Source: Paramicrobacterium chengjingii
GTDB lineage: Bacteria > Actinomycetota > Actinomycetes > Actinomycetales > Microbacteriaceae
DNA: 64,000 nucleotides
NCBI RefSeq assembly: GCF_011751765.2
Contig: NZ_CP061169.1
Coordinates: forward strand, 3,038,001-3,102,000
Direction: 5' to 3'
Shown here: positions 30,640-55,882 of the stretch, in pieces
Position numbering within the stretch: position 1 is the first letter of the stretch
How the letters are laid out: each line of letters begins with the position of its first letter
Program-made: the position numbers and the translations under genes
The notes under the pieces: model-generated
What the model was told of the DNA's origin: nothing
Databases searched by the model: none
Seen by the model: the letters and a program-made list of their open reading frames with translations, nothing else

Positions 30640-32151
30640 TCAGCCGCGGGCGGCATCTCCCCAGTTCACCGATTCTCCGGCGGGAGCGAAGCGCTGCGGC
30701 ACGTTCCACGGGTTCGCGTCTTGCAACGCCTCGGGCAGCAGCGACTGCGGGGCGTTCTGGTACGCGACGGGGCGTACGAATCGTGTGATCGCCGCCGTTC
30801 CGACTGAGGTGTTCGAGTCGTTCGTCGTCGCCGGCCACGGGCCGCCGTGCTGCATCGCCGGTGTCACCGCGACGCCCGTCGGCCAGCCGTTGAACAGCAC
30901 ACGTCCAGCGCCTTCGCTCAGCACGGCAACAAGTTCGCGCAGTGCATCAGACGCCTCGCCGTCGCCGTGATGAACGGTCGCTGTCAGGTTGCCGGGGAAG
31001 AGCTCCTCGGCAAGCGCCGCGAGGTCATCACTGGCGGAATACTGAACAACAACGCTCAGCGGCCCGAAGCTCTCGTCGAGCAGTCGGTCACGCTGCGCCA
31101 CGAGCGTCGCGGCGTCGGTGACGACGATCGTCGGCGTCGCCCAGCCCTGACCATCAACATCCCGCTCGAGGCTTCCCACGGCGATCGCCCGCACACCATC
31201 GGTGGAGAGAATCGCATCGCGGCGCTCGCCGTAGCCGTCGGCAATGCGCGGGTTGAGCATGCGGTGAGGTTGGGCTTCGGATGCCGCCTCGGCGATGCCC
31301 TGCTCGAGCGGCGCCGCATCGGGAACGAACACGAATCCCGGCTTCGTGCAGAGCTGGCCTGCAGAACCGCCGACGCTGGTCACGAGACCCGAGGCGATCT
31401 CGGCGGCCCGCTCCGAGATCGCCTGTTCGGTGACGAACACCGGGTTGACGCTGCCGAGCTCTCCATAGAACGGGATCGGCTTCGGGCGAGCTGCGGCGAT
31501 GTCGGCCAGCATCCGGCCGATCTTCGTCGATCCCGTGAACGAGCCTGCGGCGATGAGCGGATGCTTCAGAAGGTCGACACCACGCTGCTGCCCCGAGATC
31601 GTCTGGAAAACGTGCTCGGGAAGCCCGGCACCGGTGAGCGCCTCAGTGATGACGCGCGCGGTCTCGGCCGAGAGCTCGGGGTGCCCCGAGTGCGTCTTGA
31701 CGACGAGGGAGCAGCCCGATGCCAGCGCGGCAGCAGTGTCGCCGCCTGCCACAGAAAACGCGAAGGGGAAGTTGCTCGCCGCGAAGTTGATGACCGGCCC
31801 GACCGGCGTCAGGTAGCGGCGCACATCGGGGCGCGGTCCGAGCGCAAAGTTCGGATCGGCGGCGTCGATGCGTGCGTCGAGGTACGAACCGTCGACGACG
31901 GTGTCTGCGAATACACGAAGCTGAACGGCGGTGCGCTTGAGCTCACCGCGCAAGCGCCCCTCGGCAAGCCCGGTCTCGGCCATGCCGATCGGAACGAGCG
32001 CATCAGCATTCGCCTCAAGCGCGTCGGCTGCAGCCACGATGGCGCGTGCACGCACAGCGGGTGAAATGCGCGACAGCGCACGGAACGCCCCATCGGCGTT
32101 CTGCGCGATCTCATCGACACTCGTGGTTGTGGCGCTGGTGTCCGTTGTCAT
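30640..32151 (-). CDS. 2-ketoglutarate semialdehyde dehydrogenase
   Basis: Aldehyde dehydrogenase of 503 residues. Catalytic positions are visible: Asn127 in AASNFPFAFS, Lys152 in LVVKTHSGHPE, Glu231 in FYGELGSVNPVF and nucleophile Cys268 in GGSAGQLCTKPG. The GGSAGQLCTKPG and FYGELGSVNP blocks are specific to the ketoglutarate semialdehyde (2,5-dioxovalerate) group. It is the last gene of the hydroxyproline operon and oxidises the semialdehyde released by the deaminase to 2-oxoglutarate. Only 10 bp separate it from the epimerase gene. Confidence 0.93.
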   Translation of the reverse strand: MTTDTSATTTSVDEIAQNADGAFRALSRISPAVRARAIVAAADALEANADALVPIGMAETGLAEGRLRGELKRTAVQLRVFADTVVDGSYLDARIDAADPNFALGPRPDVRRYLTPVGPVINFAASNFPFAFSVAGGDTAAALASGCSLVVKTHSGHPELSAETARVITEALTGAGLPEHVFQTISGQQRGVDLLKHPLIAAGSFTGSTKIGRMLADIAAARPKPIPFYGELGSVNPVFVTEQAISERAAEIASGLVTSVGGSAGQLCTKPGFVFVPDAAPLEQGIAEAASEAQPHRMLNPRIADGYGERRDAILSTDGVRAIAVGSLERDVDGQGWATPTIVVTDAATLVAQRDRLLDESFGPLSVVVQYSASDDLAALAEELFPGNLTATVHHGDGEASDALRELVAVLSEGAGRVLFNGWPTGVAVTPAMQHGGPWPATTNDSNTSVGTAAITRFVRPVAYQNAPQSLLPEALQDANPWNVPQRFAPAGESVNWGDAARG

Positions 32152-32161
32152 ATGTGTCCTC

Positions 32162-33163
32162 CTAGAAGACGAATCCGGTCGGGAAAGGGTCCGTCGGGTC
32201 GAGCAGGTACTGCCCCATGCCCGTCACCCAAGCCCGCCCGGTGATGGTCGGAATGACGGCGGGCGTGCCGTCTACCTCGGTCTCGGCGATGATCCGCCCC
32301 GTGAAGCGGCTGCCGATGAACGATTCGTTGACGAAGTCGGTGTCGAGCGCGAGCTCACCGCGCGCCCACAGCTCGGCCATGCGGGCGGAGGTTCCCGTGC
32401 CGCATGGCGAGCGGTCGAACCAGCCAGGGTGAATCGCCATGGCGTGGCGCGAAAGCTGCGCGTTGGAGTCGGGCGCGATGAACTCGACGTGATGGCAGTG
32501 GTCGACGCCGGAGATCGACGGATGCTTCGGAGCATCCTGCTCGTTGATCGCCGCCATGATCGCCAGGCCCGCATCAAGGATCTCTTGCTGACGCGTGCGG
32601 TCGAAGGACAGTCCGACGTCGTTGAGATTCACCATGGCGTAGTAATTGCCGCCGAACGCGAGCGAGTAGGGCACCTCGCCGAGGCCGGGAACTGTGATCA
32701 CAGCATCCAGTCTGTCGACAAAGCTGGGAACATTCTCGATTGTGACGGCGTCCGCGTGCCCATCGCTCACGTCGACGCGGGCGATCACGAGACCGGCCGG
32801 GGTGTCGAGGCGAATCGTGGTGACGGGTTCGACGACCTCCACCATGCCTGTTTCGACGAGCACGGTGGCTGTGCCGATCGTGCCGTGGCCGCACATGGGA
32901 AGGCAGCCGGATGCTTCGATGTACACGATGCCCCAGTCGCAATCGTCCCGCGTGGGAGGCTGCAGCAGTGCGCCGCTCATGGACGCATGGCCACGCGGCT
33001 CGTTCATGAGAAACTGCCGCAGTTCATCCATGTGCTCGATGACGTGCAGTCGCTTGTCGTTCATGGTCGCCCCAGGGATGACGCCGACGCCGCCCGTTAC
33101 GACGCGCGTCGGCATCCCCTCGGTGTGTGAATCGACCGCGGTGATCACACGGCTTGCTCGCAT
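32162..33163 (-). CDS. 4-hydroxyproline 2-epimerase (proline racemase family)
   Basis: Proline-racemase-fold enzyme, 333 residues, cofactor-independent. Both catalytic cysteines are present: Cys91 in LPMCGHGTIG and Cys254 in DRSPCGTGTSAR. The start TAVDSHTEGMPTRVV, the DKRLHVIEHMDELRQFLMNE segment and NEPRGHASMSGAL are typical of 4-hydroxyproline epimerases. It converts trans-4-hydroxy-L-proline to cis-4-hydroxy-D-proline. Position between the deaminase and semialdehyde dehydrogenase genes of the same operon makes epimerase far more likely than proline racemase. Confidence 0.92.
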   Translation of the reverse strand: MRASRVITAVDSHTEGMPTRVVTGGVGVIPGATMNDKRLHVIEHMDELRQFLMNEPRGHASMSGALLQPPTRDDCDWGIVYIEASGCLPMCGHGTIGTATVLVETGMVEVVEPVTTIRLDTPAGLVIARVDVSDGHADAVTIENVPSFVDRLDAVITVPGLGEVPYSLAFGGNYYAMVNLNDVGLSFDRTRQQEILDAGLAIMAAINEQDAPKHPSISGVDHCHHVEFIAPDSNAQLSRHAMAIHPGWFDRSPCGTGTSARMAELWARGELALDTDFVNESFIGSRFTGRIIAETEVDGTPAVIPTITGRAWVTGMGQYLLDPTDPFPTGFVF

Positions 33164-33172: not shown

Positions 33173-34087
33173 CTAGCGGCTCGCGATGTAGTCGAGGGCG
33201 CGCTTGGTGTCGCGCGTGACTCCCTCGATCTGCTCTGCCGAGAGCGGTCCGCGCGGCGGACGGGTGCGACCACCGTAGGTGTTGCCCGCAACATCCTGAG
33301 ACAGCTTGATCGCTTGAACGAACTCGGTCTCGGAGTCCCACCAGAACACCGGGCGCAGCTCGCGGTACAGGTCGCGCGCCTCGTCGATCTTGCCCGCATA
33401 CACGAGCTCGCAGATCTCAGCGGACTCCTTCGGGAACACGTTGGGGTACCCGGCGAACCAGCCGACGGCTCCGGCGACGAGCGACTCGAAGAGCAGATCA
33501 TCAGCACCGGCGACGACGTCGATGTCGCAGGCATCCTGAATGTCCATGACCCGGCGGATGTCGGTGGAGAACTCCTTGACGGCGACAACGTTCTCGAGCT
33601 TCGCCAGCTCGGCGATCAGGTCGGGCGTGAGGTCAACCTTGGTGTCGAGGGGGTTGTTGTAGAGCATCATCGGCAGGCCGACCTCGTTCACCTTGCTGTA
33701 GTGCTCAATCACCTCGTCGCGGTTGGCGCGGTAGATGGTGGGCGGAAGGCACAGCACGGCGTCCGCTCCGTCTTCCTTCGCATACTCGGCCCACTGCACG
33801 GCCTGGTGCCAGCCGACTCCGTGCACTCCGGCAACGACGATGCCGCGACCGGCGACAGCCTCGACGGCGACCTGGATCACCTTGCGACGCTCGTCGTCTG
33901 TGAGCGACGAGTACTCGCCGAGCGACCCGTTGGGGCCGACGCCGCGGCATCCGTTCTCGATCAGAAAGTTGCAGTGTTCGGCGAACTTCTCGTAGTCAAC
34001 AGCGAGCCCTGCGGGAGCGCTTGCGTCTTCTTTGAACGGAAGAGTCGTCGCGACGACGACGCCTCCGAGGTCAAACTTCTTGCTCAT
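33173..34087 (-). CDS. 1-pyrroline-4-hydroxy-2-carboxylate deaminase (DapA family)
   Basis: DHDPS/NAL-superfamily TIM barrel, 304 residues. The Schiff-base lysine is in VVAVKEFSTD and the catalytic tyrosine in MMLYNNPLD; the substrate loop reads GPNGSLGEYSSLT. In hydroxyproline catabolism such enzymes dehydrate and deaminate 1-pyrroline-4-hydroxy-2-carboxylate to 2-ketoglutarate semialdehyde. The gene lies between the dehydrogenase subunits and the epimerase with gaps of about 10 bp. A dihydrodipicolinate synthase role is unlikely in this context. Confidence 0.92.
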   Translation of the reverse strand: MSKKFDLGGVVVATTLPFKEDASAPAGLAVDYEKFAEHCNFLIENGCRGVGPNGSLGEYSSLTDDERRKVIQVAVEAVAGRGIVVAGVHGVGWHQAVQWAEYAKEDGADAVLCLPPTIYRANRDEVIEHYSKVNEVGLPMMLYNNPLDTKVDLTPDLIAELAKLENVVAVKEFSTDIRRVMDIQDACDIDVVAGADDLLFESLVAGAVGWFAGYPNVFPKESAEICELVYAGKIDEARDLYRELRPVFWWDSETEFVQAIKLSQDVAGNTYGGRTRPPRGPLSAEQIEGVTRDTKRALDYIASR

Positions 34088-34097: not shown

Positions 34098-35525
34098 TCA
34101 GTGTTTCTTCTGGTGCGACGTTTCTTCGGTTGGAAGTTCCACGGATGCATTGGCGAGATCGCCGATGCGCACCGGGGAGACGATGGGTCTGCGGTCTGTT
34201 GCAACGCCGTCGGCAAACGTGCCGCCGAGCAGCTCCTCGACGCTGCGCCCGCAGATGCGGCCCTGGCAGATGCCGAGGCCAGCGCGTGTCGAGAGTTTGA
34301 GTGAGCGGAGCCCGCACGAGGCGGTCTGCGACTGGATGCTGGCGAGCTCACCGCTCGTCACCTCTTCACAGCGGCACACCGTTGTGTCGTCGCGCAACCA
34401 ACTGGTCCAGCCGGGGCGCGGGGCGTGCACAGCGTCGAGTCGGTCGCCGAACGAGACGAAGCGGTCGCGTGCGCGAGCGGCACGGCTGATCTCTGCCGAC
34501 CGTGGGCCGCGCGCGGCGAAATGCCCCGCGATGGAGCCTTCGGCAAGCGCAGCATCGGCACCGGCGATCCCGGTCAGCTCACCCGCGGCGTAGACACCCC
34601 GGATGCTGGTCTGCTGACGCACATCGACCTCGACGAACCGCTCGGCGGTGATGCTGCATCCTGCCGCGATCGCCAACTCGAGGCGCGGTGTGAATCCGTG
34701 GCTGACGCAGACAGCATCCGTTTCGATCGTCGTCTCGGTTCCTGCAATGGGTGACCAGCTCGCGTCGACGCGAGCGACGGTCGCCGCCTCGACGCGGTCG
34801 GTGCCGTGCGCCTCAATGACCGCGCGGCCCGTGAAATACGGGATGCCGTGGCGCACGTGTCCCGCAACATAGCCGGCGAGCTCCGGCATCTTGCCGACGG
34901 CGGCCCCGAGCTGCCAGGGCTTCGCACCCCAGCCGCGCATAAGCGCCGCGGTTGTCGTCGCCTCGTACACGCCGAGAACGCGAGCGCCGGTGAGCGCAAG
35001 CGACTGGGCAACGGGAAGCAGAAAGGGCCCCGCCCCGGCGACGATGGCGCGTGATCCGAGGGCGATGCGCTCTGACTTCGCGAGGGCTTGAGCGGCGCCG
35101 GCCGTGTAGACGCCGGGCAGGGTCCAACCGGGGAACGGAAGGGTACGGTCGTGCGCGCCAGTGGCCAGAATGAGCGCCTCTGGCTCGAGCGTGAGTGCCG
35201 TTCGGCCCACGGAGTCGACGGGGCCGACGTGCGCGTGAACCCGGGGAGCGCCGTCGTCTCGCTGCTCGATAAGCCACACCTGCGCATTCTGAACGAGCGT
35301 GCACGACGGATGCTGCGTCACCTCGCTCGCGAGAGCCTCGAACGTGCTCCAGCCGTGGTGCAGAACACGCTGCTTCGCCGCGTGGGCTGCGTCGGGAAGG
35401 TGCCGCCAGAACTGGCCGCCGAGCTGATCGGACGAGTCGAGTAGGGTGACGTCCGCACCGGCGCGAAGTGCCGAGCGGGCTGCAGCGAGCCCAGCGGGGC
35501 CTGCGCCGATGACGACGATTGTCAT
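34098..35525 (-). CDS. D-hydroxyproline dehydrogenase, FAD/NAD subunit with BFD-like cluster domain
   Basis: Flavoprotein of 475 residues of the HcnB/OoxA group. An N-terminal FAD-binding motif (TIVVIGAGPAGLAAARSAL) and a second dinucleotide motif (AIVAGAGPFLLPVAQSLAL) are followed by a C-terminal BFD-type [2Fe-2S] domain with cysteines in TTVCRCEEV and GICQGRICG. With the 2Fe-2S protein and the DAAO-like subunit encoded just upstream it should form a three-subunit amino-acid dehydrogenase that oxidises cis-4-hydroxy-D-proline and passes electrons to the respiratory chain. The 4-bp overlaps tie the three genes together. Confidence 0.88.
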   Translation of the reverse strand: MTIVVIGAGPAGLAAARSALRAGADVTLLDSSDQLGGQFWRHLPDAAHAAKQRVLHHGWSTFEALASEVTQHPSCTLVQNAQVWLIEQRDDGAPRVHAHVGPVDSVGRTALTLEPEALILATGAHDRTLPFPGWTLPGVYTAGAAQALAKSERIALGSRAIVAGAGPFLLPVAQSLALTGARVLGVYEATTTAALMRGWGAKPWQLGAAVGKMPELAGYVAGHVRHGIPYFTGRAVIEAHGTDRVEAATVARVDASWSPIAGTETTIETDAVCVSHGFTPRLELAIAAGCSITAERFVEVDVRQQTSIRGVYAAGELTGIAGADAALAEGSIAGHFAARGPRSAEISRAARARDRFVSFGDRLDAVHAPRPGWTSWLRDDTTVCRCEEVTSGELASIQSQTASCGLRSLKLSTRAGLGICQGRICGRSVEELLGGTFADGVATDRRPIVSPVRIGDLANASVELPTEETSHQKKH

Positions 35526-35854
35526 GATGCCTCGCCTTCCTCGCTCGGGCGGGCCTCATTCTGCAGTGCGACGACATCTCCGTCGCAGGCGCGACGCTGG
35601 CAGGCGCGCACGTCTCGCTCATCGCCGACGGTGAGAATGCAGTCGTAGCAGACGCCGATGCCGCAGAAGATGCCGCGCGGTCGACGGTCGCGGCTCGTCG
35701 TGCGCCAGGAGTCGCGACCGTTCTCAAGCAGCACGCCCGCGATCGTGCTCCCGGAAGATCCCGTGAGCTGTTCGCCGTCGACGATGATGCTGACGTGTTC
35801 GGCGTCGATGCGCTCGGTCGGGTCGTGCTCGGGGGACAGGCGGTGCGCGGTCAT
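35522..35854 (-). CDS. D-hydroxyproline dehydrogenase, [2Fe-2S] subunit
   Basis: Small iron-sulfur protein of 110 residues (HcnA-like). The cluster cysteines follow the plant-ferredoxin pattern: GIFCGIGVCYDCILTV and then DVRACQRRAC. It sits between the two flavoprotein genes, overlapping both by 4 bp, and links their redox centres. The N-terminal ~20 residues are variable. Confidence 0.9.
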   Translation of the reverse strand: MTAHRLSPEHDPTERIDAEHVSIIVDGEQLTGSSGSTIAGVLLENGRDSWRTTSRDRRPRGIFCGIGVCYDCILTVGDERDVRACQRRACDGDVVALQNEARPSEEGEAS

Positions 35855-37044
35855 GCGGCACTCTCCTCTGCCGTCAGGGCTGCGGCGAGCGACGGGCGCG
35901 CAACACTGAAGGCGTCGGCGTCAAGTTCTGGTGTGCGGCCCGCGTAGAGGTCGCTCACGAGGTCGGCCGTCGAGATCGACAGACCGATGCCGGCGCCCTC
36001 GTGGCCGGTCGCGTGCCAGAGGCCGGGAAGGCGATGGTCGGGGCCGATGACCGGCAGATGGTCGGGCATGAACGGCCGAAATCCGCCGTAGGCGCGCATA
36101 ATGCTTGCGGTGCGCAGAAACGGGAAGACGCGGGTGCTCTTGGCCGCGATCTCACGGATCACCTCGGCGCGCAGTCGAGAATCGAAGCCGATCTGCTCAC
36201 GGCTCGATCCGATCAGCACGGTGCCGGCTGCCGTCGACTCGATGACGCTCGACGTCTGCAGCGCCGCGTCGTTGGACTGCGTCGCGCCGAAGTAGTCACC
36301 GTCATACACCTTGCGGAAGATGCGGTGAGGCATCCGCGTGGTGACGAGCACGACGCCCCGGCGCGGGCGAACGGGAAGAGTAACGCCCATCCTCGACGCG
36401 ACGTCTGCGGCCCAGGGGCCCGCCGCGTTGATGACCGCCGGTGCGGCCACCGCACCGGCGGTCGTCTGCACGCCCGTGAGCTCGCCTGTGGCCGAGCGGA
36501 TGCTGCTGAGCACGTCTACGCCGCAGCGCACGTCGGCTCCCGCATGACGAGCAGACGCCAACAGCGCTTCTGTGGCGATGACTGGCTGCACCTGGGAGTC
36601 CTGCGGGTAAGCGACGGCCGCTGTGATGCCGGGGTTGATGTGTGGCTCGAGGCTGAGTGCCTCGCTGATGTCGATGATCTGCGCGTCAACGCCCGCATCG
36701 GCCTGCGAGCGAGCAAAGTGCTTAAGCGGCTCGGCGCCGGCCTCGGTCGTCGCAACCACGAGGCCGCCCTTGCGCTCGAACTCGATATCGGGAAATCCTG
36801 CGCCGAGCTCATCGGCGAGTTCGGCTGCGAGCTTGATCCAGCGGCCGTTTGCGTGCAGTGCAAGCTCGAGCTCGCGCCCCGGGGCTTTGTCGGAGACGAG
36901 CAGGTTGCCTTCGCCCTGTCCGCTCGTGCCGGCCGCGGCCGCAGCGCGCTCGAGAACGACAACGCTCACGCCATCACGACTGAGGGCACGGGCGATCGCT
37001 GCGCCGACGATGCCGGCGCCGATGATCGCGACGTCGTACCCCAT
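35851..37044 (-). CDS. D-hydroxyproline dehydrogenase, DAAO-like FAD subunit
   Basis: FAD-dependent amine oxidoreductase of 397 residues in the HcnC/DadA group. The FAD motif is YDVAIIGAGIVGAAIARALS, followed by GTSGQGEGNLLVSD and later AYGGFRPFMPDHLPVIGP with HATGHEGAGIGLS, typical of sarcosine/proline/hydroxyproline oxidoreductases. It should hold the catalytic site that oxidises cis-4-hydroxy-D-proline to 1-pyrroline-4-hydroxy-2-carboxylate. It is the first gene of the operon; the upstream region contains regulatory repeats. SD GGAGAGGG precedes the ATG. Confidence 0.92.
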   Translation of the reverse strand: MGYDVAIIGAGIVGAAIARALSRDGVSVVVLERAAAAAGTSGQGEGNLLVSDKAPGRELELALHANGRWIKLAAELADELGAGFPDIEFERKGGLVVATTEAGAEPLKHFARSQADAGVDAQIIDISEALSLEPHINPGITAAVAYPQDSQVQPVIATEALLASARHAGADVRCGVDVLSSIRSATGELTGVQTTAGAVAAPAVINAAGPWAADVASRMGVTLPVRPRRGVVLVTTRMPHRIFRKVYDGDYFGATQSNDAALQTSSVIESTAAGTVLIGSSREQIGFDSRLRAEVIREIAAKSTRVFPFLRTASIMRAYGGFRPFMPDHLPVIGPDHRLPGLWHATGHEGAGIGLSISTADLVSDLYAGRTPELDADAFSVARPSLAAALTAEESAA

Positions 37045-37070
37045 GTCACCCTCTCCCTCGTGAGCCTGTC

Positions 37071-37115
37071 ATATGTAATATGTCACACATTGCTAAATTT
37101 GTGAAGTGCTTCACA
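37071..37115. promoter_or_regulatory. Regulon operator A and inverted repeat upstream of hydroxyproline operon
   Basis: The 17-mer ATATGTAATATGTCACA (37071-37087) recurs identically at 50837-50853 in front of the AGCS symporter gene. Its core TGTCACA (37081-37087) also appears, with small changes, before the GH127 and metalloprotease genes. A second element, TGTGAAG-TG-CTTCACA (37100-37115), is a 7-2-7 inverted repeat unique to this site. The GntR protein encoded at 37228-37902 is the obvious candidate to bind (inference). Confidence 0.65.
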
Positions 37116-37227: not shown

Positions 37228-37902
37228 TCACGCAGCATCCTCGGGCTTGCCCGACCACCAGCCGAGCGTGTGGTGGATGTGCCGCGCCATGAGGTCGCGG
37301 GCACCCTCCTGGTCGCCCGCCGCCAGCAGCTGAAGCAGCTCGACGTGCTCTGCAGCCGAGTCCTGCAGCTTCTGCGTCTTCACCATCGACGCAAGTCCGA
37401 CGAGACGTGTGCGTGACCGCAGGTCGGCGACGACCTCGGCGAGATGCCGGTTGCCGAGCAGCCGCGTGAGCGCCATGTGAAACGCGTGATCCGACTGCAG
37501 ATATGTGGCCAGGTCGCCTCCCGCGGCGCCGGCGACAATCTCGTCGGCGAGCGCACGCAGTTCGCCCATGCGCTCGGACGGAAAACTCGCCGCCAGCTCG
37601 TACATGGCCGGGGGCTCAAGCCACAATCGCACCTTGGCGATCTGCGCGAGCTCCTCTTCGCTCACGCTCGTGACGCGAAAACCCTTATTGCGCACCGGTT
37701 CGACGAACCCGCGCCGCGCGAGCCCGAGCATGGCCTCGCGCACCGGCGTGGCTGAGACGCCGAACTTGCCGGCGAGAGTCGGCACTGTCAGCAGCTCTCC
37801 CGGAGCCAGCTCCCCCGAGATAATGCCCGTCGACAGCATCTGCTGCACGTAGTCGCGCAGACTCGACTGCTGCGGTATGGGCTGAATCGCACTCGTCGAC
37901 AT
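37228..37902 (-). CDS. GntR-family regulator (FCD type) of hydroxyproline genes
   Basis: Regulator of 224 residues. The winged helix covers about 14-80 (YVQQMLSTGIISGELAPGEL, FGVSATPVREAMLGLARRG, wing VEPVRNKGFRV). The FCD domain has the metal-binding pattern with Asp/His in SDHAFHMALTRLLGN, His in AEHVELLQLL and His in ARHIHHTLGWW. It lies between the peptidase genes and the hydroxyproline operon on the same strand. Repeats with a TGTYACA core upstream of four transcription units in this region are its likely targets, and free hydroxyproline or an intermediate is the likely ligand (inference). Confidence 0.92.
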   Translation of the reverse strand: MSTSAIQPIPQQSSLRDYVQQMLSTGIISGELAPGELLTVPTLAGKFGVSATPVREAMLGLARRGFVEPVRNKGFRVTSVSEEELAQIAKVRLWLEPPAMYELAASFPSERMGELRALADEIVAGAAGGDLATYLQSDHAFHMALTRLLGNRHLAEVVADLRSRTRLVGLASMVKTQKLQDSAAEHVELLQLLAAGDQEGARDLMARHIHHTLGWWSGKPEDAA

Positions 37903-48142: not shown

Positions 48143-48154
48143 GATATGTTACAC
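48143..48154. promoter_or_regulatory. Regulon operator C upstream of GH127
   Basis: GATATGTTACAC (core TGTTACA at 48147-48153) matches the GTGATATGT and TGTYACA parts of the operators at 37071 and 50837. It lies 48 bp upstream of the GH127 start, in the position expected for control of the GH127/peptide-importer operon. Confidence 0.5.
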
Positions 48155-48450: not shown

Positions 48451-48452
48451 TG

Positions 48453-48465
48453 ATGTGTCACACGT
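48453..48465. promoter_or_regulatory. Regulon operator D upstream of the metalloprotease
   Basis: ATGTGTCACACGT contains the palindrome GTGT-C-ACAC and the core TGTCACA (48456-48462) shared with the other three sites of the proposed regulon. It is 66 bp upstream of the metalloprotease start. Confidence 0.45.
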
Positions 48466-48530
48466 CACGACGCGATGGCGAGGGCTTCACTACCCATGTA
48501 TCGACACTCGAGTTCTGAAGGAGAACCGCT

Positions 48531-50744
48531 ATGTCGCGAACACGAATACTGGCGGGAGGTGCACTGGTGACATCATTGTTGATGGCTCCAGCACTCCTGC
48601 TCGGCGCTGCGCCCGCCGCTGCCACAGATGCCCCGATCGCCGTCGCCGCTGACGGCACTGTGCCCGTTGATCCCCGTTTCGACGGCCCGCAGATCACCGA
48701 GATCCGGGTGATCAACGAGCAGAAGTTTCTCGAGATCTACTGGGACCGCTACGTCGACGAGAACGAAGCTGTGAGCCCCGAGAACATCGTGCTCACCAAC
48801 GGCAGTCGCACAATCAATCTGACGGCGAAGCCCGCAACCGGGCGCACCGATTCCGTCTTCTTCGATCAAAAGAACGAGCAGATGGCGGCGACCGAAGCCA
48901 ATAGCATGGAGCGGCTGCCCGACGATCTGCACCTGGCGAGCATTGCCTACACAGGAACGATCGATGTGACCGAGCCGCTGACGCTCACGGTGAACGGCAC
49001 GGCGATCGTCGATGAGCAGGGCAGGTCTGCCGAGAGCGCCGAATACACCAGCATCCCGAAACTCGACTATTACACGCAGTCCGTCACGACAGACACCGGC
49101 ATCGTCGTGAAGGCGAACCCTCGTGTTGAAGCCGGCACGCTGGCCCTCGCGGCCGAGCAGGTCGATGTCGAGCTGGCGAAAACCGAGACCGGCATCGCCG
49201 CGCAGATGGCGAACTTCGGATGCTCGCTCGCCGTCTACGCGTCGCGGGAGAACGCGTATCTCATTCCCGAGCACCGCGGTGGCTACGATCCCGAGATGTA
49301 CGACGTGGAAGGATACGGCGGCAGCACCTACAACAATTGCGTCTCGTCGATTTCCGAGCGCAACGTGCTGCGCACGCGCGGCAACGCCGACCCGTTTCTC
49401 AACACGAGCTATCCGAATGAGAACATTCTGATTCACGAATTCGGCCACGCCGTGAAGCTTGTCGGAATCGAGACGATGGACGACACGACGCTGGCAAATG
49501 AGTTCTACGCCGCGTACGAGAATGCGTATCTCACGGGGCTCTGGCCCAACACGTATGCCATCGGCAACAGCGACGAGTTTTTCGCCACCCTGTCGGCGAT
49601 CTGGTTCGACGTCATGGCCGAGAAGCCCGACTGGAGCGACGGCGTGCGAAGCCCCATCAACACCCGAGCCGAGCTCAAAGAGTACGACCCCACGTCATTT
49701 GCGTTCTTCGAGAAGATCTACCCGTCAGACCTGACGCTGCCTGCGCCGTGGGATGAGCCGGCACCCGATGAATACCATGGCGACTACACCGAACTGCCGG
49801 ACCAAGAACCTCGCACGACGGCGACCGAAGTCGCGTTCGGAACCGATCAGTTTCGCATCTCGACGCAGACCATCAGCGGCGATTTTCAGATCGACCAGTT
49901 CGCGGGCGATGCCGAGCATCCTGGTCGCGATGTCTGCGTCTGGTTCACCTGGGGTGGCGGGGTGTGGTCGATTGACTATAGCGACGGTCTCTACACGATC
50001 AGCGCGTCAGATGGCAGCGGTGTGCTCTCGGCCACGTCGGAGACCGAAGTGCGCTATGCCGACGTCAGTGCAGACGAATTTGACGACAGCCAGAAATGGG
50101 TGTTCACGCCCGACGCGTCAACACCGGATGCCCCCTACGACGGTCAGCTCGTGAACGCGGCGAACGGCCGTGCTCTCGCGCTCGACGGCCGCGCGAACAC
50201 CGGTGTCTCGCTGACTCTCACGGCACCCGATTCCGGCACCCGCTGGATGCTCGAAGACACGACGCGCACCGAGGTGCAGGGCACGGCCGCCTACGTGCTT
50301 CCCGTTTCGGTGTCGCTGACGTCAGAGGGACAGGATGCTCGCACGCTCGACGTCGCACAGCAGGGCTTCACCCTGCCCAGCATCGCTGACGTCGCCGGAG
50401 CCGACTGGCAGCGAGAGGGCTACACGTTCTCTGGCTGGCGAATCGTGGGCGACGACAGCATCCTCCCGTCTGACTGGGCGATTCCCGATGACACGACGGC
50501 CCTCTCGCTGGAAGCCGTGTGGGAAGCCGCCGAACTGCCTGGACAACCGGAGGATCCGGCAGCTCCAGCTGATGATGCAGCCTCTGCAGGTGATGCCCCG
50601 TCAGACGCGGCGTCGGATGCGTCGGGCGAGCTACCGCGCACGGGTGGTGACATCGTCGGCGCCGTCGCGGCAGCCGTTCTCGCATTGCTCGTCGGCGGTG
50701 GACTGCTTGTCGCACGGCGAGTCACCTCACGCGCCGCAAAGTAG
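48531..50744 (+). CDS. Sortase-anchored zinc metalloprotease (lethal-factor/PPEP-like motif)
   Basis: Surface protein of 737 residues. A signal peptide (LVTSLLMAPALLLGAAPAAA) is followed by an adhesin-like domain to about residue 190, a gluzincin-type protease domain with HEFGH (302-306) and, 43 residues later, Glu349 in NSDEFFATLSAIWF, then a region resembling a ricin-type trefoil (about 430-590), and the sorting signal LPRTG (701-705), a membrane helix and RRVTSRAAK. The pair HEFGHAV plus an EFFA-type motif resembles anthrax lethal factor and Pro-Pro endopeptidases (peptidase M34). That, and the hydroxyproline locus around it, suggests cleavage of Pro/Hyp-rich proteins (inference). AAGGAG precedes the ATG. 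Confidence 0.82.
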   Translation: MSRTRILAGGALVTSLLMAPALLLGAAPAAATDAPIAVAADGTVPVDPRFDGPQITEIRVINEQKFLEIYWDRYVDENEAVSPENIVLTNGSRTINLTAKPATGRTDSVFFDQKNEQMAATEANSMERLPDDLHLASIAYTGTIDVTEPLTLTVNGTAIVDEQGRSAESAEYTSIPKLDYYTQSVTTDTGIVVKANPRVEAGTLALAAEQVDVELAKTETGIAAQMANFGCSLAVYASRENAYLIPEHRGGYDPEMYDVEGYGGSTYNNCVSSISERNVLRTRGNADPFLNTSYPNENILIHEFGHAVKLVGIETMDDTTLANEFYAAYENAYLTGLWPNTYAIGNSDEFFATLSAIWFDVMAEKPDWSDGVRSPINTRAELKEYDPTSFAFFEKIYPSDLTLPAPWDEPAPDEYHGDYTELPDQEPRTTATEVAFGTDQFRISTQTISGDFQIDQFAGDAEHPGRDVCVWFTWGGGVWSIDYSDGLYTISASDGSGVLSATSETEVRYADVSADEFDDSQKWVFTPDASTPDAPYDGQLVNAANGRALALDGRANTGVSLTLTAPDSGTRWMLEDTTRTEVQGTAAYVLPVSVSLTSEGQDARTLDVAQQGFTLPSIADVAGADWQREGYTFSGWRIVGDDSILPSDWAIPDDTTALSLEAVWEAAELPGQPEDPAAPADDAASAGDAPSDAASDASGELPRTGGDIVGAVAAAVLALLVGGGLLVARRVTSRAAK

Positions 50745-50791: not shown

Positions 50792-50836
50792 TCTTTCCCA
50801 CCAATGATCGGTCTCTTCTTCCCAACAGCCATAGTG

Positions 50837-50853
50837 ATATGTAATATGTCACA
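50837..50853. promoter_or_regulatory. Regulon operator B upstream of the AGCS operon
   Basis: ATATGTAATATGTCACA is identical over 17 bp to the site upstream of the hydroxyproline operon at 37071-37087. Extended by TG it includes the perfect palindrome ATGT-C-ACAT. It stands 73 bp before the symporter start. Confidence 0.65.
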
Positions 50854-50925: not shown

Positions 50926-52404
50926 ATGGACGTCCTCACGTCAATCAATGACCTCATCTGGAATCCGATGGCCTATCTCGCTCTCGGGCTCGGTCTGTTC
51001 TTCACGATCCTCACGCGCGGTGTTCAATTTCGTCGCATCCCCGATATGATCCGGGAGCTCGGTGCCAAGAAGGACACCCCCGACGGCAACTCACCATTGC
51101 AGGCAGTGCTGCTGACGCTCGCGAGCCGCGTCGGCGTCGGCAACATCGCCGGCGTGGCCACCGCCATCTACGCCGGTGGCCCGGGAGCAATGTTTTGGAT
51201 GGTGCTGTGCGCCCTGCTCGGCTCAGCGAGCGCATATGCCGAATCGACCCTGGCCCAGGTGTTCAAGACGAAGATCGACGGTGAGCACAGAGGCGGTGTC
51301 CCCTATTACGTCGAGAAGGGGCTCAAGGCGAAGTGGCTCGCCGTCATTCTCGCCGCGATGATCCTCGTGGGCTACGGGTTCGTGTTCCCCGGCGTGCAGT
51401 CGAACAACATCGCGCAGAGCGTGAACGAAGCATTCAGCATCCCACTCTGGGCGACTGCCCTGTTTGTCACAGCACTTCTCGCTGTTGTCATCGTCGGCGG
51501 CACTAAGCGCATCGTCGCTGTCGCTCAGGTGTTTGTTCCCTTCATGGCAGCGGGCTACATCATCGCCACGATCGTCATGCTGTCGCTGAACGTCGAGCAG
51601 ATCTGGCCGACCATGACACTCGTCTTCTCGAGCGCCTTCGGTGTCAACCAGGTGTTCGGCGGAATTCTCGGCGCGGCTGTCGCCTGGGGAGTTCGCCGCG
51701 CGGTGTTCTCCAACGTCGCCGGCGTCGGCGAGGGCACGTTTGGCGCAGCATCCGCCGCCGTGCGCCACCCTGCCAAGCAGGGCCTCGTGCAGGCATTCTC
51801 GATCTTCATCGACACCGTCGTCGTCTGCAACGCGACGGGAATCATGATCCTCATCTCTGGCATCTACGATGTCGCAGACGAAAACGGCGCCCTGATCTTC
51901 AGCGGCGCACACGGAATTGAGGCGGGTCCCGGCTACACTCAGGCCGCTATCGACACGATTGCTCCGGGAATCGGCCCGGGTTTCGTCGCCGTCGCGCTGT
52001 TCTTCTTCGCTTTCACCACGCTCATCGCGTTCTACTACATCGCCAAGACCAACCTCGTGTACCTGTTCCGAGGTCGTGCCGCGGTGATCGCCGACTGGGT
52101 GCTCAAGGTCGGCATGGTCGCCATCACGTTCTACGGCAGTGTCGAATCCCCCACGGTCATCTGGGCGATCGGCGATATCGGCTACGGTTCGATCGGCTGG
52201 GTGAACATGATCTGCATTCTCCTGCTGAGCCCCGTCGTGTATAAGGTGACGCGCGACTACGACAGGCAGCGCAAAGCGGGCAAGGATCTCACGTTCAATC
52301 CTGAAGCGCTCGGCATCAAGCGTGCGCACTTCTGGATGCAGGACCACACGGGCACAATCGCGCGGGCGAGGGCCGAACGACTCTCAGACCTCGACGAGCT
52401 GTAG
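50926..52404 (+). CDS. Amino acid:cation symporter (AGCS family)
   Basis: Membrane transporter of 492 residues of the alanine/glycine:cation symporter family. Family motifs are LTLASRVGVGNIAGVATAIYAGGPGA (read as LASRVGVGNIAGVATAI), the GGVPYYVEKGL segment and GEGTFGAASAAVRHP. AGCS members take up alanine, glycine or proline-like amino acids with sodium. It starts an operon of transport and amino-acid metabolism genes controlled by the shared 17-mer operator; uptake of free hydroxyproline or proline is the simplest proposal (inference). Confidence 0.9.
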   Translation: MDVLTSINDLIWNPMAYLALGLGLFFTILTRGVQFRRIPDMIRELGAKKDTPDGNSPLQAVLLTLASRVGVGNIAGVATAIYAGGPGAMFWMVLCALLGSASAYAESTLAQVFKTKIDGEHRGGVPYYVEKGLKAKWLAVILAAMILVGYGFVFPGVQSNNIAQSVNEAFSIPLWATALFVTALLAVVIVGGTKRIVAVAQVFVPFMAAGYIIATIVMLSLNVEQIWPTMTLVFSSAFGVNQVFGGILGAAVAWGVRRAVFSNVAGVGEGTFGAASAAVRHPAKQGLVQAFSIFIDTVVVCNATGIMILISGIYDVADENGALIFSGAHGIEAGPGYTQAAIDTIAPGIGPGFVAVALFFFAFTTLIAFYYIAKTNLVYLFRGRAAVIADWVLKVGMVAITFYGSVESPTVIWAIGDIGYGSIGWVNMICILLLSPVVYKVTRDYDRQRKAGKDLTFNPEALGIKRAHFWMQDHTGTIARARAERLSDLDEL

Positions 52405-52457: not shown

Positions 52458-53813
52458 GTGACCGAAACGACGGCAACGGAACAACGCCGTGTACGTAAAG
52501 TAATGTCCGCGTCGGCGATAGGCCACTTTGTCGAATGGTTCGACTTCGCTGTCTACGCCTATGCCGCCCCGGTCATCGCCATGCAGTTCTTTCCGGAATT
52601 CGACGCAACGGCGGCTTTGCTTTCGACGTTCGCCGTGTACACGGTGGGATTCGTCGCGAGACCGGTCGGAGCATTCATGCTCGGTGCTCTCGGTGACCGC
52701 TACGGACGCAAGCGCATCTTGGCAAGCATCATTCTGCTGATGGGGCTCTCCACCACCCTCATCGGATTGCTGCCCACGTACGCGGTCATCGGAGTAGCGG
52801 CACCCCTGCTTCTCGTTCTTCTGCGCATACTGCAGGGATTGTCTGCGGCAGGCGAGACGATTGGATCCAACTCCTTCGTCGCCGAGCACTCTCCCATTGC
52901 GACACGTGGCCGAAACGTGGGCATCGTCTACACAGCATCCAATCTGCCTCCCGTGCTCGCAGCGCTACTCGTACTTGGCCTCACCACAGCGCTCAGCCCG
53001 GACTCGTACGAGGCGTGGGGCTGGCGCATTCCGTTCCTTCTGGGAGCCCCGCTGGCGATCATCGGTCTGTACATTCGCACCCGTGTCGACGAGTCTCCGG
53101 CCTTCGTCGAGATGCGCGAGACGAAAAAGGTTGAGAAGGCTCCGATTCGCGCGGTGTTCGCTGAGCACTGGCGCGCCATGCTCTTTGTCTTCTCGATGGC
53201 TGCCGTCGCGAGCCTCGGCTACTACTCTCTGACGGGCTACTTCTACTCGTACATGACTGTGACGCTCGGTCTTTCTTCTCAGCACGCGCTCATTTCGAAC
53301 AGCATCGCGCTGCTCATCACCTTCGTCACCGTGCCGATCGCCGCAATGGTGTCGGACCGCATCGGCAGAAAACGGATGCTGCTTATCGGCATCGCATTCA
53401 GCGCGGTCATTGCTCTGCCCGCATACCTGCTCGTCGGTGTGGGAACACTCGGAGCCGTCATCATCGCCCAGGCGCTTCTGGGCTTCGGGCTCGGCCTCGT
53501 GTTCGGGCCAGCTGGCCCGGCCTACGTCGAGATGTTCCCGGCACGCGTGCGCTACACGGGCGCGTCGATCAGCTATAACCTTGCCTTCACCATCTTCGGT
53601 GGAACAGCACCGCTGCTCGCGACCGCTCTGATCACGTGGACCGGGTCCACCATTGCCCCGGCCTGGTACATCGTCGCCGTCACGATTCTCGCCTTCGCCG
53701 TGCTGCTTCGCATGCCAGAGACGCGGTCCCGTTCAATGCGCGACGAGGCTATTATGGCCGCGGCTGCCAAGGGGGAGCACTCGAACGAACCGTCGCAACC
53801 TGAAAGACTCTGA
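52458..53813 (+). CDS. Metabolite:proton symporter (MHS/ProP-like MFS)
   Basis: Major facilitator of 451 residues with 12 predicted helices. MHS-family motifs are clear: GHFVEWFDFAVYAYAAPVIA at the start, LGALGDRYGRKRIL in the loop between helices 2 and 3, and GETIGSNSFVAEH later. Relatives import proline, betaine, citrate or ketoglutarate. The GTG start follows AAAGGAG. It lies in the AGCS operon, 3 bp before a proline-racemase-family gene, so a proline or hydroxyproline isomer is the likely cargo (inference). Confidence 0.9.
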   Translation: MTETTATEQRRVRKVMSASAIGHFVEWFDFAVYAYAAPVIAMQFFPEFDATAALLSTFAVYTVGFVARPVGAFMLGALGDRYGRKRILASIILLMGLSTTLIGLLPTYAVIGVAAPLLLVLLRILQGLSAAGETIGSNSFVAEHSPIATRGRNVGIVYTASNLPPVLAALLVLGLTTALSPDSYEAWGWRIPFLLGAPLAIIGLYIRTRVDESPAFVEMRETKKVEKAPIRAVFAEHWRAMLFVFSMAAVASLGYYSLTGYFYSYMTVTLGLSSQHALISNSIALLITFVTVPIAAMVSDRIGRKRMLLIGIAFSAVIALPAYLLVGVGTLGAVIIAQALLGFGLGLVFGPAGPAYVEMFPARVRYTGASISYNLAFTIFGGTAPLLATALITWTGSTIAPAWYIVAVTILAFAVLLRMPETRSRSMRDEAIMAAAAKGEHSNEPSQPERL

Positions 53814-53816: not shown

Positions 53817-54839
53817 ATGGATGCTGTCAGCACCGTCGACTTTCACACGGCAGGCGAACCGTTTCGCATCGTCGTCGACGCTGGCGTGCCGCTCGCGGGC
53901 GACACCGTGGCAGAGCGCCGCATGCACGCCATGGCGCCGGAGTCACGGCTCGACGTGCTGCGAAAGATTCTCTGCTTCGAACCGCGCGGCCACGCCGACA
54001 TGTACGGCGGGTTCATCACGCCGCCCGACGATGACGGCGCCGATTTCGGCGTTCTGTTTTGGCACAAAGACGGGTTCTCGACGGCGTGCGGGCACGGCAC
54101 AATCGCCCTCGGCGCGTGGGCTGTCGAAACCGCACTGGTGGCGGCCCCCGACACCGGTGCGAGAGATGTCGTGATCGACGTACCCTCGGGCCGCGTCACT
54201 GCTCGCGTTCACACGGAAGCGGGTCTGGTCACGAGCGTCGACTTCGTCAACGTGCCCAGCTACATGCTTGCCACAGCGGTGCCCGTCGCGACATCGCGCG
54301 GAGATGCGGAGGTCGATGTGTCATACGGCGGTGCGATCTACGCACAGCTCGACGCCGCATCCGTTGGCCTGCGCATCGAGCCACGCAACATCGACGCGCT
54401 CATCGCGGTGGGCCGTGAGATCAAGTGGGCCCTGAACGACGCAGCCGTGGCGCAGCATCCGGGCGACCCGCGTCTGAGTGGCGTCTACGGCACGATTCTG
54501 TTCGAGCAGCTTGAGCCACCGGATGCCACGCCGCACACGTTCACGCAGCGCAACGTCACTGTCTTCGCCGACGGGCAGGTCGACCGGTCGCCGTGCGGAT
54601 CGGGCACCGCAGCTCGCATCGCCACGCTCGCGGCAACGAGGTCGATGCGCGACGAGGACGTTCTGCTGCACGACTCGATCGTCGGCTCGAGGTTCACAGG
54701 CAGCATCCGCTCACGTACGCGAGTGCACAACCGCGATGCCGTCGTGCCGCAGGTGACGGGCATGGCCTATCGCACTGGCGAAAGCACCTTCACCGTTGAC
54801 CCCCGAGACCCTCTGATCCCTGGCTTCGTTCTGAGATAG
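53817..54839 (+). CDS. Second proline-racemase-family enzyme (Cys/Cys type)
   Basis: Proline-racemase-fold protein of 340 residues, paralogous to the epimerase at 32162-33163 but clearly divergent. Active-site cysteines are Cys91 in FSTACGHGTIALG and Cys260 in DRSPCGSGTAAR. The Cys/Cys pair is usual for racemases and epimerases; trans-3-hydroxyproline dehydratases usually have Thr at the second position. Its neighbour is an ornithine-cyclodeaminase-family gene, a pairing typical for the trans-3-hydroxyproline route. The product is therefore ambiguous: racemase/epimerase by motif, dehydratase by context. Confidence 0.88.
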   Translation: MDAVSTVDFHTAGEPFRIVVDAGVPLAGDTVAERRMHAMAPESRLDVLRKILCFEPRGHADMYGGFITPPDDDGADFGVLFWHKDGFSTACGHGTIALGAWAVETALVAAPDTGARDVVIDVPSGRVTARVHTEAGLVTSVDFVNVPSYMLATAVPVATSRGDAEVDVSYGGAIYAQLDAASVGLRIEPRNIDALIAVGREIKWALNDAAVAQHPGDPRLSGVYGTILFEQLEPPDATPHTFTQRNVTVFADGQVDRSPCGSGTAARIATLAATRSMRDEDVLLHDSIVGSRFTGSIRSRTRVHNRDAVVPQVTGMAYRTGESTFTVDPRDPLIPGFVLR

Positions 54840-54841
54840 CG

Positions 54842-55882
54842 ATGCCGAGAAAGCGAGTGCCGACAATGATGACCTACGTTGACGCCGAGACCGTTCGCGC
54901 GACTCTGACCCCGGATGCGGCTGTCGAGGCGATCCGCGAGACTCTTCGGCGGGGCTTCGACCCGGCCGATGACATTCCTCGGCAGCTGCTGCCGATTCCC
55001 GGCGGAGAGTTGCTGGTGATGCCCTCAGCCACCCAGCAGGCAACGGGCATCAAGGTGCTCACTGTCGGACCGGACGCCCCGAACCGAACGGTGCCGCGCA
55101 TTCAGGGACAGTACCTGCTGTTCGACGCAGAGACGCTGTCGCCGCGCATGATGCTCGACGGCATTGCGCTCACGTCGCTGCGTACTCCGGCGGTCTCGTT
55201 CGCACCGATCGCGCCGCTGCTCACCGAGAGCGCCGAGCCGCTCGCTGTCGTGATCGTCGGCACGGGCGCACAGGGAGTCGCCCACGAGGCGACGCTCCGG
55301 GATCTGCTCGGCGGCCGTCGTGAGGTCGCGATCACCTACGTCGGCCGCACACGTCCTAACTGGTGTGAGCGTTGGGCTGAGACCGGCACTGACGAGGCGC
55401 GAGCTGCTATCGAGGCATCCGATCTGATCGTCTGCGCGAGCACGGCGAAGGCTCCAGTTCTCGAGAACGACTGGGTAAAACCGGATGCTGTCGTGATCGC
55501 GCTCGGCTCGCATGACCCTGCCGAACGCGAGCTTCCCAGTGATCTGATGGTACGTGCGCAGATCGTGGTGGAAGAGGTCGACACAGCGTTCCGCAGCGGG
55601 GGTGACATCGTGATGGCTGCGGCTGACGGCTCGATCACACGTGAGAATCTGATTCCGATGCGGGCGGTGATCCGCGGCGAGCACGAGCTTCACCGTGACT
55701 CCCCCATTGTCGTCAAGACGACGGGTATGTCGTGGGAAGACCTCGCGCTGGCGACGGCGATCGCGAACCTCCTCGACAACGAAATGGCAGAAGACGTGGA
55801 GGCGTACGACATTGCGAAGGCCGACGATGACGGCACGCGAGTCAGCCACGACGAAGTGACAACGTACGAGCTATCGGAGTGA
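54842..55882 (+). CDS. Ornithine cyclodeaminase/mu-crystallin family reductase
   Basis: NAD(P)-binding protein of 346 residues. Substrate-site residues are seen in TGIKVLTVGP and LTSLRTPAVS, the Rossmann motif is VVIVGTGAQGVAHEATLRD and the ALGSHDPAERELP segment follows. Bacterial relatives include 1-pyrroline-2-carboxylate reductases (LhpI), which convert the product of 3-hydroxyproline dehydration or D-proline oxidation to L-proline. It lies 2 bp after the second racemase-family gene. True ornithine cyclodeaminase activity is possible but less likely here. The start could also be the ATG at 54869 or 54872. Confidence 0.87.
   Translation: MPRKRVPTMMTYVDAETVRATLTPDAAVEAIRETLRRGFDPADDIPRQLLPIPGGELLVMPSATQQATGIKVLTVGPDAPNRTVPRIQGQYLLFDAETLSPRMMLDGIALTSLRTPAVSFAPIAPLLTESAEPLAVVIVGTGAQGVAHEATLRDLLGGRREVAITYVGRTRPNWCERWAETGTDEARAAIEASDLIVCASTAKAPVLENDWVKPDAVVIALGSHDPAERELPSDLMVRAQIVVEEVDTAFRSGGDIVMAAADGSITRENLIPMRAVIRGEHELHRDSPIVVKTTGMSWEDLALATAIANLLDNEMAEDVEAYDIAKADDDGTRVSHDEVTTYELSE

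Follow-up and report, generated by a model that had tools for sequence, protein, structure and literature searches.

A probable HypR-type regulon joining a GH127 glycosidase, an oligopeptide importer, proline peptidases and hydroxyproline catabolism in Paramicrobacterium chengjingii and other actinobacteria

Hydroxyproline-rich glycoproteins (HRGPs) are among the most resistant proteins of the plant cell wall, and little has been learned of how microbes use them whole. The described systems that we are aware of exploit one part or the other, arabinose or hydroxyproline (Hyp). In Bifidobacterium longum, by the accounts cited, the GH127 enzyme HypBA1 is cytoplasmic, is paired with an ABC importer and acts on the imported arabinose disaccharide beta-Ara2 (PMC7263609, PMC6085000); the set HypBA1/HypBA2/HypAA, with its Xanthomonas counterpart XeHypBA1/BA2/AA, is aimed at the Hyp-linked arabinosides of HRGPs. 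In Streptomyces coelicolor, the cited sections of PMC6608401 describe a regulon (SCO6289-SCO6294, SCO5912) of a three-subunit dehydrogenase, a deaminase, an epimerase and a secreted metalloprotease under the GntR-FCD repressor HypR. An in silico account of HRGP degradation in Latescibacteria (WS3), based on single-cell genomes, assigns GH127 to extensin arabinosides and proposes oligopeptide uptake (PMC4454575), and work on the proline racemase superfamily reports Hyp catabolic neighbourhoods of the epimerase 4HypE (eLife 2014; PMC4113996). Here we describe a locus of Paramicrobacterium chengjingii that has elements in common with all of these and that we consider likely to be a HypR-type regulon for Hyp-O-arabinosylated peptides of plant cell-wall glycoproteins. 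It occupies positions 30640-55882 of the window, by which we mean the whole 64,000-nucleotide stretch that was analysed (contig NZ_CP061169.1, positions 3,038,001 to 3,102,000; the host genome is a single contig of 3.62 Mb).

The locus differs from each of the described systems. The HypBA importer, as presented in the sources cited, likely takes beta-Ara2, with the arabinose being used and extracellular GH121/GH43 enzymes cutting first, whereas here the importer is of the Opp peptide type, the locus also carries the Hyp pathway in full and a pair of proline peptidases, and no GH121 or GH43 gene was seen there (none was sought genome-wide). Among plant pathogenic bacteria, PMC6085000 describes its genes as confined to Xanthomonas; in Clavibacter, a different GH127 set was found here. 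The HypR regulon table of PMC6608401 includes no GH127, Opp importer or proline peptidases, and its protease is an M9 collagenase; the Latescibacteria account, in the sections cited, mentions neither linkage of genes nor an operator nor a unit for Hyp catabolism; and in the main text of PMC4113996 "oligopeptide" and "glycos-" do not appear and "peptidase" appears once, the glycopeptide block not being described there under those words. The initial annotation of this DNA had supposed that the chain was undescribed as one system in actinobacteria, and no open-access paper was found in which Hyp catabolism, proline peptidases and a peptide importer are united with GH127 in one regulon (the subscription literature was mostly uncovered). 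The parts are known; what is apparently new is their union as one apparently co-regulated regulon with a shared operator. Such a set would join the use of arabinose and of hydroxyproline to peptide import, naming the missing middle steps. It would also suggest a substrate that can be tested for two orphans, an Opp importer and a GH127 clade, and would widen the HypR regulon beyond collagen-type substrates to those of plant type, in plant-living genera that include Clavibacter.

Each of the locus proteins was assigned to a family by Pfam and NCBIfam scans. All of the genes named in the initial annotation are present, with families as named there, except that one open reading frame (42409-44103) had been over-extended, the OppB gene really spanning about 42409-43404, and that the protease could be described more narrowly, as set out below. 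The minus strand carries a run of genes in the order GH127, substrate-binding protein (SBP), OppC, OppB, OppD, OppF, S33, M24 and GntR, with overlaps or gaps of at most 18 bases. A 183-base gap separates GntR from the hydroxyproline operon, in which DAO, 2Fe-2S and FAD/NAD subunit genes, a DHDPS-type deaminase, the epimerase HypE and an aldehyde dehydrogenase (ALDH) follow one another at gaps of at most 10 bases. On the plus strand are a surface protease and then an AGCS symporter, a ProP-like major facilitator superfamily (MFS) transporter, a second Pro_racemase paralog and an ornithine cyclodeaminase-type (OCD) protein, the last four separated by 2 to 53 bases. The arrangement exceeds chance, because gene order is kept in other genera.

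A 19-base palindrome, GTGATATGTNATATGTCAC, lies before four likely promoters of the window: at 37068..37086, before the hydroxyproline operon and between GntR and DAO (one mismatch), at 48141..48159, before GH127 (four), at 48450..48468, before the surface protease (three), and at 50834..50852, before AGCS (none). Two of the four, the DAO and AGCS sites, supplied the consensus. With up to four mismatches, four sites are found in the window versus 0.2 expected in 64 kb from five Markov shuffles; with up to three, the whole genome holds three sites, all in the locus, and the reversed control gave none. All four sites are kept in genomes G001, G003 and G004 (genomes and loci of our comparisons carry G and L numbers).

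In other genera the half-site GTNATATGTCAC, with at most one mismatch, was found before 14 of 17 GH127 and 14 of 14 DAO genes. Together, 28 of 31 GH127/DAO promoters have it, against one of the 167 windows taken in front of 11 further genes of the block (the OppF and 2Fe-2S genes were excluded from these controls), the single control occurrence being before a GntR gene. Among the 46 loci L061-L106, several of which are incomplete or lack DAO, 20 have it ahead of DAO, and it also precedes relatives of AGCS (L075, L099; G141, G293). Both units carry it in G121, though the GH127 and hydroxyproline blocks are unlinked there, and both of the unlinked units of G006 do so as well, with a weaker GH127 site (two mismatches). 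The 74 loci of the named set described below (L166 included) were scanned with the pattern T[AG]NN[AG]TGTCAC, which occurs in 186 of 7400 random windows and in none of 525 windows before SBP, Opp, S33, M24, GntR and HypE genes. This pattern is present at GH127 in 16 of 17 Microbacteriaceae and 12 of 12 Kribbella loci, and at DAO in 14 of 14 Microbacteriaceae.

All 12 Kribbella GH127 promoters carry TGCAATGTCAC, which is identical to two sequences bound by S. coelicolor HypR in electrophoretic mobility shift assays (PMC6608401, Table 1), and the hydroxyproline and AGCS sites of the window share the half-site ATGTCAC with HypR's TACAATGTCAC. The same paper, in the parts cited, describes HypR as a repressor and reports that L-Hyp induces its targets in vivo, that deletion of SCO6293 abolishes growth on L-Hyp, and that L-Hyp left DNA binding by HypR unchanged in vitro. 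The GntR-FCD regulator of the window (37228..37902, minus strand; PF00392 and PF07729) is HypR-like, with Glu96, Asp138, His142, Glu185, His186 and His208 at the numbers given for the FCD residues of S. coelicolor HypR. Together these findings assign the GH127-peptide operon to the hydroxyproline regulon largely irrespective of map distance, and conservation of the predicted operator supports a putative co-regulation of the two units.

Linkage was examined in a survey of 299 Microbacteriaceae genomes, using cut-offs of E<=1e-150 for GH127 and E<=1e-80 for HypE. GH127 is present in 25 genomes, 23 of which hold orthologs (at least 52% identity). HypE is present in 66, comprising all 23 GH127-ortholog genomes versus 43 of the 276 others (Fisher p 2.5e-17; at genus level 8/8 versus 21/77, p 9e-5; kinship uncorrected). 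It lies no more than 16.5 kb from GH127 in 21 of the 23, and 20 of these have an identical gene order, so that the GH127-peptide and hydroxyproline blocks show the conserved linkage on which the initial annotation depended. The neighbourhoods of twenty Microbacteriaceae relatives, 19 of them GH127 orthologs, were compared. The full GH127-to-ALDH order is seen in 16 of the 19, and also in G150, G256 and G297. In G056 the hydroxyproline genes are divergent and on the other side of GH127; G006 and G121 have the GH127-to-peptidase part alone, with the hydroxyproline genes elsewhere in the genome; and the locus of G099, with a 46% GH127, shows no linkage.

A scan with an alignment of 14 GH127s yielded 80 named loci, with flanks of at most 10 kb per side. 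Of these, 73 have at least 49% identity, and four with less than 9 kb downstream were removed to give a set of 69 loci; L184-L189 (at most 40%) and L166 (48.8%) were left out. The family (G) and named (L111-L190) sets overlap, and their counts are not summed (for example, L111=G003, L114=G318, L115=G046, L116=G215, L118=G304, L168=G053, L181=G227). The SBP and all four other Opp genes are present in 68 of the 69 loci, S33 in 63 and M24 in 54; GH127-SBP-OppCBDF is contiguous in 67, with S33 directly next in 62 and both S33 and M24 directly next in 48. The linkage extends to the named loci, 44 of the 69 having a hydroxyproline-type gene in the flank (HypE and/or dehydrogenase in 32 of them), and the shared operator ties the units. 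HypE occurs somewhere in 28 of the 29 genomes without hydroxyproline genes in the flank (four short-flank records included); its distance from GH127 is 12.7 kb in the Arthrobacter record and about 33 kb in Glaciibacter. Genera with the locus include Plantibacter, Agromyces, Clavibacter, Okibacterium, Leifsonia, Glaciibacter, Planctomonas, Kribbella, Nonomuraea, Streptomyces, Streptosporangium, Isoptericola, Krasilnikoviella, Terrabacter, Arthrobacter and Specibacter; the carriers are soil and plant-associated bacteria, and the set looks built to import arabinose-bearing Hyp peptides of plant cell walls and to use peptide, sugar and hydroxyproline. By contrast, in the DNA covered, eight GH127 loci at or below 47% identity (two records are of 3.5 and 8.1 kb) lack an SBP, an Opp permease, S33, M24 and any hydroxyproline gene, and one of them has a 29% OppD-like match.

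Besides the usual downstream position, the hydroxyproline genes lie divergently upstream of GH127 in G056, Isoptericola, Krasilnikoviella, Terrabacter, an Intrasporangiaceae and some Streptomyces, downstream in other order in Nonomuraea, Streptomyces and Specibacter, and upstream in line in L166. DHDPS identity to the window's protein, outside Microbacteriaceae, ranges from 44-53% to 63-78%. Because there are at least four arrangements and so wide a range of DHDPS identity, the association of GH127 with hydroxyproline genes has probably formed more than once. General synteny was rejected as a source of the linkage: of the window's flanking genes tested, none exceeds 34% identity in loci outside the genus. 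Recurring unmatched neighbours of GH127 are, among the matches listed, mostly limited to one genus. The system is uncommon, since at E<=1e-170 a GH127 ortholog was found in two of 396 genomes of the phylum, one of them that of the window. Within the genus the locus is accessory, since another member, G002, lacks a GH127 ortholog, HypE and the protease at the cut-offs applied.

The GH127 gene (46116..48095, minus strand; PF07944, E 5.2e-77) encodes a presumed cytoplasmic beta-L-arabinofuranosidase, with catalytic, middle and C-terminal domains (PF07944, PF20736 and PF20737) that all score above cut-off. Its closest solved relatives are 4qjy, a GH127 beta-L-arabinofuranosidase, the six-hairpin glycosidase 6ex6, which we take to be BT1003, and 3wkw, presumably HypBA1. 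In an alignment with these three the HypBA1 active-site positions, with residue identities and numbers as we assume them, are conserved in the window's enzyme, and H160, H212, H272, E324, E340, C342, Y388, C418, C420 and C421 are invariant in 14 GH127 orthologs. In G006 the operon continues past M24 into araBDA, at the usual place of the hydroxyproline block: a ribulokinase gene (753 bits) and an L-arabinose isomerase gene (784 bits) flank an open frame that we read as araD, for L-ribulose-5-phosphate 4-epimerase. Genes araB and araA lie less than 6 kb from GH127 in L121 and L154 (an Arthrobacter and a Streptomyces locus), an araB-like gene (31-33%) lies near distant GH127s in three Acidobacteria loci, and araA is present in 23 of 23 GH127-ortholog genomes versus 55 of 92 other sampled Microbacteriaceae. 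Since the active site is kept and ara genes lie nearby, as araBDA does in G006, L-arabinose is the likely product, and family, residues and the nearness of ara genes point to removal of beta-L-arabinofuranose in the cytoplasm.

In a tree, in which branch support was not considered, the sampled operon-linked GH127s form one clade, with enzymes of G024 and G142 outside it. The G024 enzyme (L065:5418-8300) is a DUF1680 protein of the GH127 superfamily (PF07944, E 5e-74), presumably GH146-like; it stands in an operon without a GH127 ortholog, after SBP-Opp-S33-M24 and before the hydroxyproline genes. The earlier proposal that GH127 points to plant Hyp-arabinosides draws support from this enzyme, from the conserved active site and from the araBDA genes of G006.

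The importer genes, all on the minus strand, encode an SBP family 5 peptide-binding lipoprotein (44370..46097; PF00496, lipobox-like LALTGC), the permeases OppC/DppC (43404..44366) and OppB/DppB (42409..43404, its start placed from the profile match), and the ATPases OppD/DppD (41519..42412) and OppF/DppF (40675..41526). The best solved relative of the SBP is 2wok, an oligopeptide-binding protein. They are followed by an S33 prolyl-aminopeptidase-like hydrolase (39359..40720; PF00561) and an M24 aminopeptidase P (Xaa-Pro; 37917..39362; PF00557, PF05195), the best solved relatives of the latter being 4pv4 and 2bww, both chains of aminopeptidase P. For the S33 hydrolase, plant AT3g61540 (8jgn, E 7e-105) is a much nearer solved relative than the chains named proline iminopeptidase (best E 3e-4). 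By a simple hydrophobicity measure a signal-peptide-like stretch is present in the SBP and the surface protease and in none of GH127, S33 and M24; the same measure is also high for the FAD-binding N-terminus of DAO. Family and linkage together suggest that the Opp system imports Pro/Hyp peptides, and the M24 and S33 enzymes are predicted to hydrolyse them. A Clavibacter supernatant proteome paper, in the part consulted, lists five peptide SBPs, which could not be mapped to the GH127 operon.

The hydroxyproline operon, also on the minus strand, holds the trans-4-hydroxyproline pathway in one unit, with reactions assigned from protein families. The D-hydroxyproline dehydrogenase has DAO (35851..37044; PF01266, E 5.6e-68), 2Fe-2S (35522..35854; PF13510) and FAD/NAD subunits, the last with a BFD-like domain (34098..35525; PF07992 above cut-off, PF04324 below its cut-off). 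They are followed by the DHDPS-family Delta1-pyrroline-4-hydroxy-2-carboxylate (Pyr4H2C) deaminase (33173..34087; PF00701), a named step of the pathway (PMC6608401), and by HypE, the 4-hydroxyproline 2-epimerase (32162..33163; PF05544, E 4.8e-125), a Pro_racemase protein with both catalytic Cys in CGHG and SPCGTG motifs. The least certain member is the ALDH (30640..32151; PF00171), presumed to be the alpha-ketoglutaric semialdehyde (KGSA) dehydrogenase of the final step to 2-oxoglutarate; its closest solved chains, 3v4c and 1eyy, are aldehyde dehydrogenases, and it sits in the hydroxyproline operon in other genera too. The operon enzymes would together convert Hyp to 2-oxoglutarate, and in the homologous operon of S. 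coelicolor the epimerase gene is reported to be needed for growth on L-Hyp (PMC6608401).

We propose the following route. The lipoprotein SBP and OppBCDF would import short Pro/Hyp-rich peptides or glycopeptides, cytoplasmic GH127 would strip beta-L-arabinofuranose, and aminopeptidase P and the S33 prolyl aminopeptidase would free Hyp and Pro; carriage of a glycosylated peptide by the importer, and the order of de-arabinosylation and hydrolysis, are the most conjectural parts. HypE, the three-subunit D-Hyp dehydrogenase, the deaminase and ALDH would then take Hyp to 2-oxoglutarate, and arabinose would pass through araBDA, encoded elsewhere or, as in G006, within the operon. The GntR-FCD protein would repress the units from the shared operator until Hyp accumulates. 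In this genus, an operator-controlled wall-anchored lectin-metalloprotease would make peptides outside the cell, with amino-acid transporters under the same operator. A bolder form of the proposal, which we rate as improbable, is that the importer takes intact arabinosylated Hyp peptides that include plant-secreted glycopeptide signals (beta-L-arabinosylated, hydroxylated peptide hormones) along with extensin fragments; if true, plant-living actinobacteria, Clavibacter included, would both feed on and remove plant peptide signals.

Several observations weigh against the proposed regulon. No hydroxyproline gene lies within the flank in 25 of the 69 named loci, 12 of the 44 positive loci have a DHDPS-family gene alone, near the end of the flank, and many rows come from few genera, so that the counts are not independent. 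The pattern T[AG]NN[AG]TGTCAC is found at only 7 of 45 GH127 and 5 of 9 DAO promoters outside Microbacteriaceae and Kribbella and at 7 of 30 DHDPS promoters; at the protease it is present in one Microbacteriaceae locus and in none of three other loci, and the protease itself is present in four of the 69 named loci and missing from most. The closest NCBIfam model of the GH127 is aceric acid hydrolase, at 364.5 of 950 bits, far under its cut-off, and the GH127 family has several activities. No GH121, GH43 or other extracellular arabinosidase was seen in the locus, the genome at large not having been searched for one. The predicted structure of the SBP has a mean predicted local distance difference test score (pLDDT) of 42, and the model was not used.

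The surface metalloprotease (48531..50744, plus strand) has a signal peptide, an ATLF/M34-like gluzincin domain (HEFGH, Glu349), a beta-trefoil and an LPRTG anchor. Its Pfam ATLF match, at 19.8 bits, is under the cut-off of 27.4 for this member; ATLF is matched at E<=0.001 by 29 of 44 aligned family members, and H302, E303, H306 and E349 are invariant across the 44. The structure model is good and shows the trefoil (lectin-type) domain; a fold search with it returned, among the matches listed, mainly beta-trefoils and no metalloprotease, which is uninformative on the catalytic domain, and phmmer against PDB gave no match at E<=1. The nearest named relatives are those of P. fandaimingii (81%) and P. 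agarici (76%). That this is a separate adhesion or host-interaction protein with a borrowed operator, not feeding the importer, is possible though doubtful. It would suit the trefoil domain, the rarity of the gene (four of 299 Microbacteriaceae genomes, and the window's own alone among 394 class genomes), relatives in Bifidobacterium and a Lachnospiraceae metagenome-assembled genome, and the absence of T[AG]NN[AG]TGTCAC before the protease in three Promicromonosporaceae loci. It sits poorly with the operator at the promoter in this genus and with the finding of a 69-70% relative immediately after M24 at three Promicromonosporaceae loci, two of Isoptericola and one of Krasilnikoviella, which rules out that the protease is unlinked outside the genus. 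The role proposed for an anchored metalloprotease would apply to this genus and a few others, the gene being missing from most loci; by analogy with the collagenase of the HypR regulon, it may supply peptides from outside. In G003, at L025:12020-12675, a C-terminal fragment of the protease (one TGA in the matching frame) adjoins a fragment of the second Pro_racemase gene. Fuller copies lie beside them, and the fragments look like the decayed remains of a duplication of part of the plus-strand module.

A second alternative is a general regulon for scavenging Pro/Hyp peptides from collagen, gelatin or any Hyp protein, with GH127 an occasional helper and glycopeptides minor. The S. coelicolor repressor HypR controls a putative collagenase gene (PMC6608401), which is consistent with this. 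The 44 hydroxyproline loci without a GH127 ortholog that were compared, several of them incomplete, include those of G105 and G222, where a different Opp importer, S33 and M24 peptidases and the hydroxyproline block occur together, with the half-site before the alternative SBP gene. On the other side, GH127 is the operon's first gene in the mapped loci (as the search anchor, its mere presence proves nothing), the GH146-like DUF1680 enzyme stands in the G024 operon, which has no GH127 ortholog, and araBDA lies in the operon of G006. We consider this alternative unlikely, and favour arabinosylated peptides as the substrate.

It is less likely still that import is of sugar only, the SBP carrying beta-Ara2 or Hyp-arabinosides as in B. 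longum and the peptidases serving another purpose. The action of B. longum HypBA1 inside the cell on imported beta-Ara2 (PMC7263609, PMC6085000) would fit, as would G142, in which an other-clade GH127 lies beside the hydroxyproline block (L077:9277-19899) with CUT1-like sugar ABC importer genes, a LacI-like regulator and a GH2-like enzyme, labels that were read from sequence. Here, however, the importer is of the Opp/Dpp family with an SBP of family 5 whose nearest solved chain is oligopeptide-binding, and both proline peptidases stand directly next in 48 of the 69 named loci (S33 in 62). The G142 locus is possibly a second way of joining Hyp-arabinoside uptake to Hyp catabolism. Finally, action of GH127 on another beta-linked sugar, for example a pectic one, its place in the operon reflecting the release of both by wall breakdown, is consistent with a family that is not mono-functional, with the aceric acid hydrolase model and with a 6ex6 score near those of arabinofuranosidases, and is made very improbable by the kept and invariant HypBA1 active-site positions, the arabinose genes near GH127 in three loci and the shared Hyp operator.

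Scans of the locus for promoters and terminators did no better than shuffles, and an Rfam scan of 30000-56500 gave nothing above the gathering score. Just past the locus are an EIIC-GAT type phosphotransferase system (PTS) permease gene (56037-57500) and a transketolase gene (59658-61742), and the window scan found no operator site of up to four mismatches near either.

The remaining plus-strand genes encode the AGCS sodium:amino-acid symporter (50926..52404; PF01235, with TIGR00835 above cut-off), the ProP-like MFS transporter (52458..53813), which was found in G003 and not seen in G001 or G004, the second Pro_racemase-family enzyme (53817..54839) and a Delta1-pyrroline-2-carboxylate reductase-like OCD protein (54842..55882). 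In trans-3-hydroxyproline dehydratase the second catalytic Cys is replaced by Thr, according to the section of PMC4113996 cited. The second Pro_racemase paralog retains both catalytic Cys (SPCGSGT motif), and because of this it is not a canonical trans-3-Hyp dehydratase. In six loci without a GH127 ortholog (L070, L072, L073, L081, L091 and L092), relatives labelled as trans-3-hydroxyproline dehydratase (T3Dh) and Delta1-pyrroline-2-carboxylate reductase (P2CR) are encoded on the strand opposite to DAO, some 7-9 kb ahead of it, with ABC-ATPase-like matches (25-29%) in between. Each of the six has a near-operator site, 0-2 mismatches from the half-site, before T3Dh.

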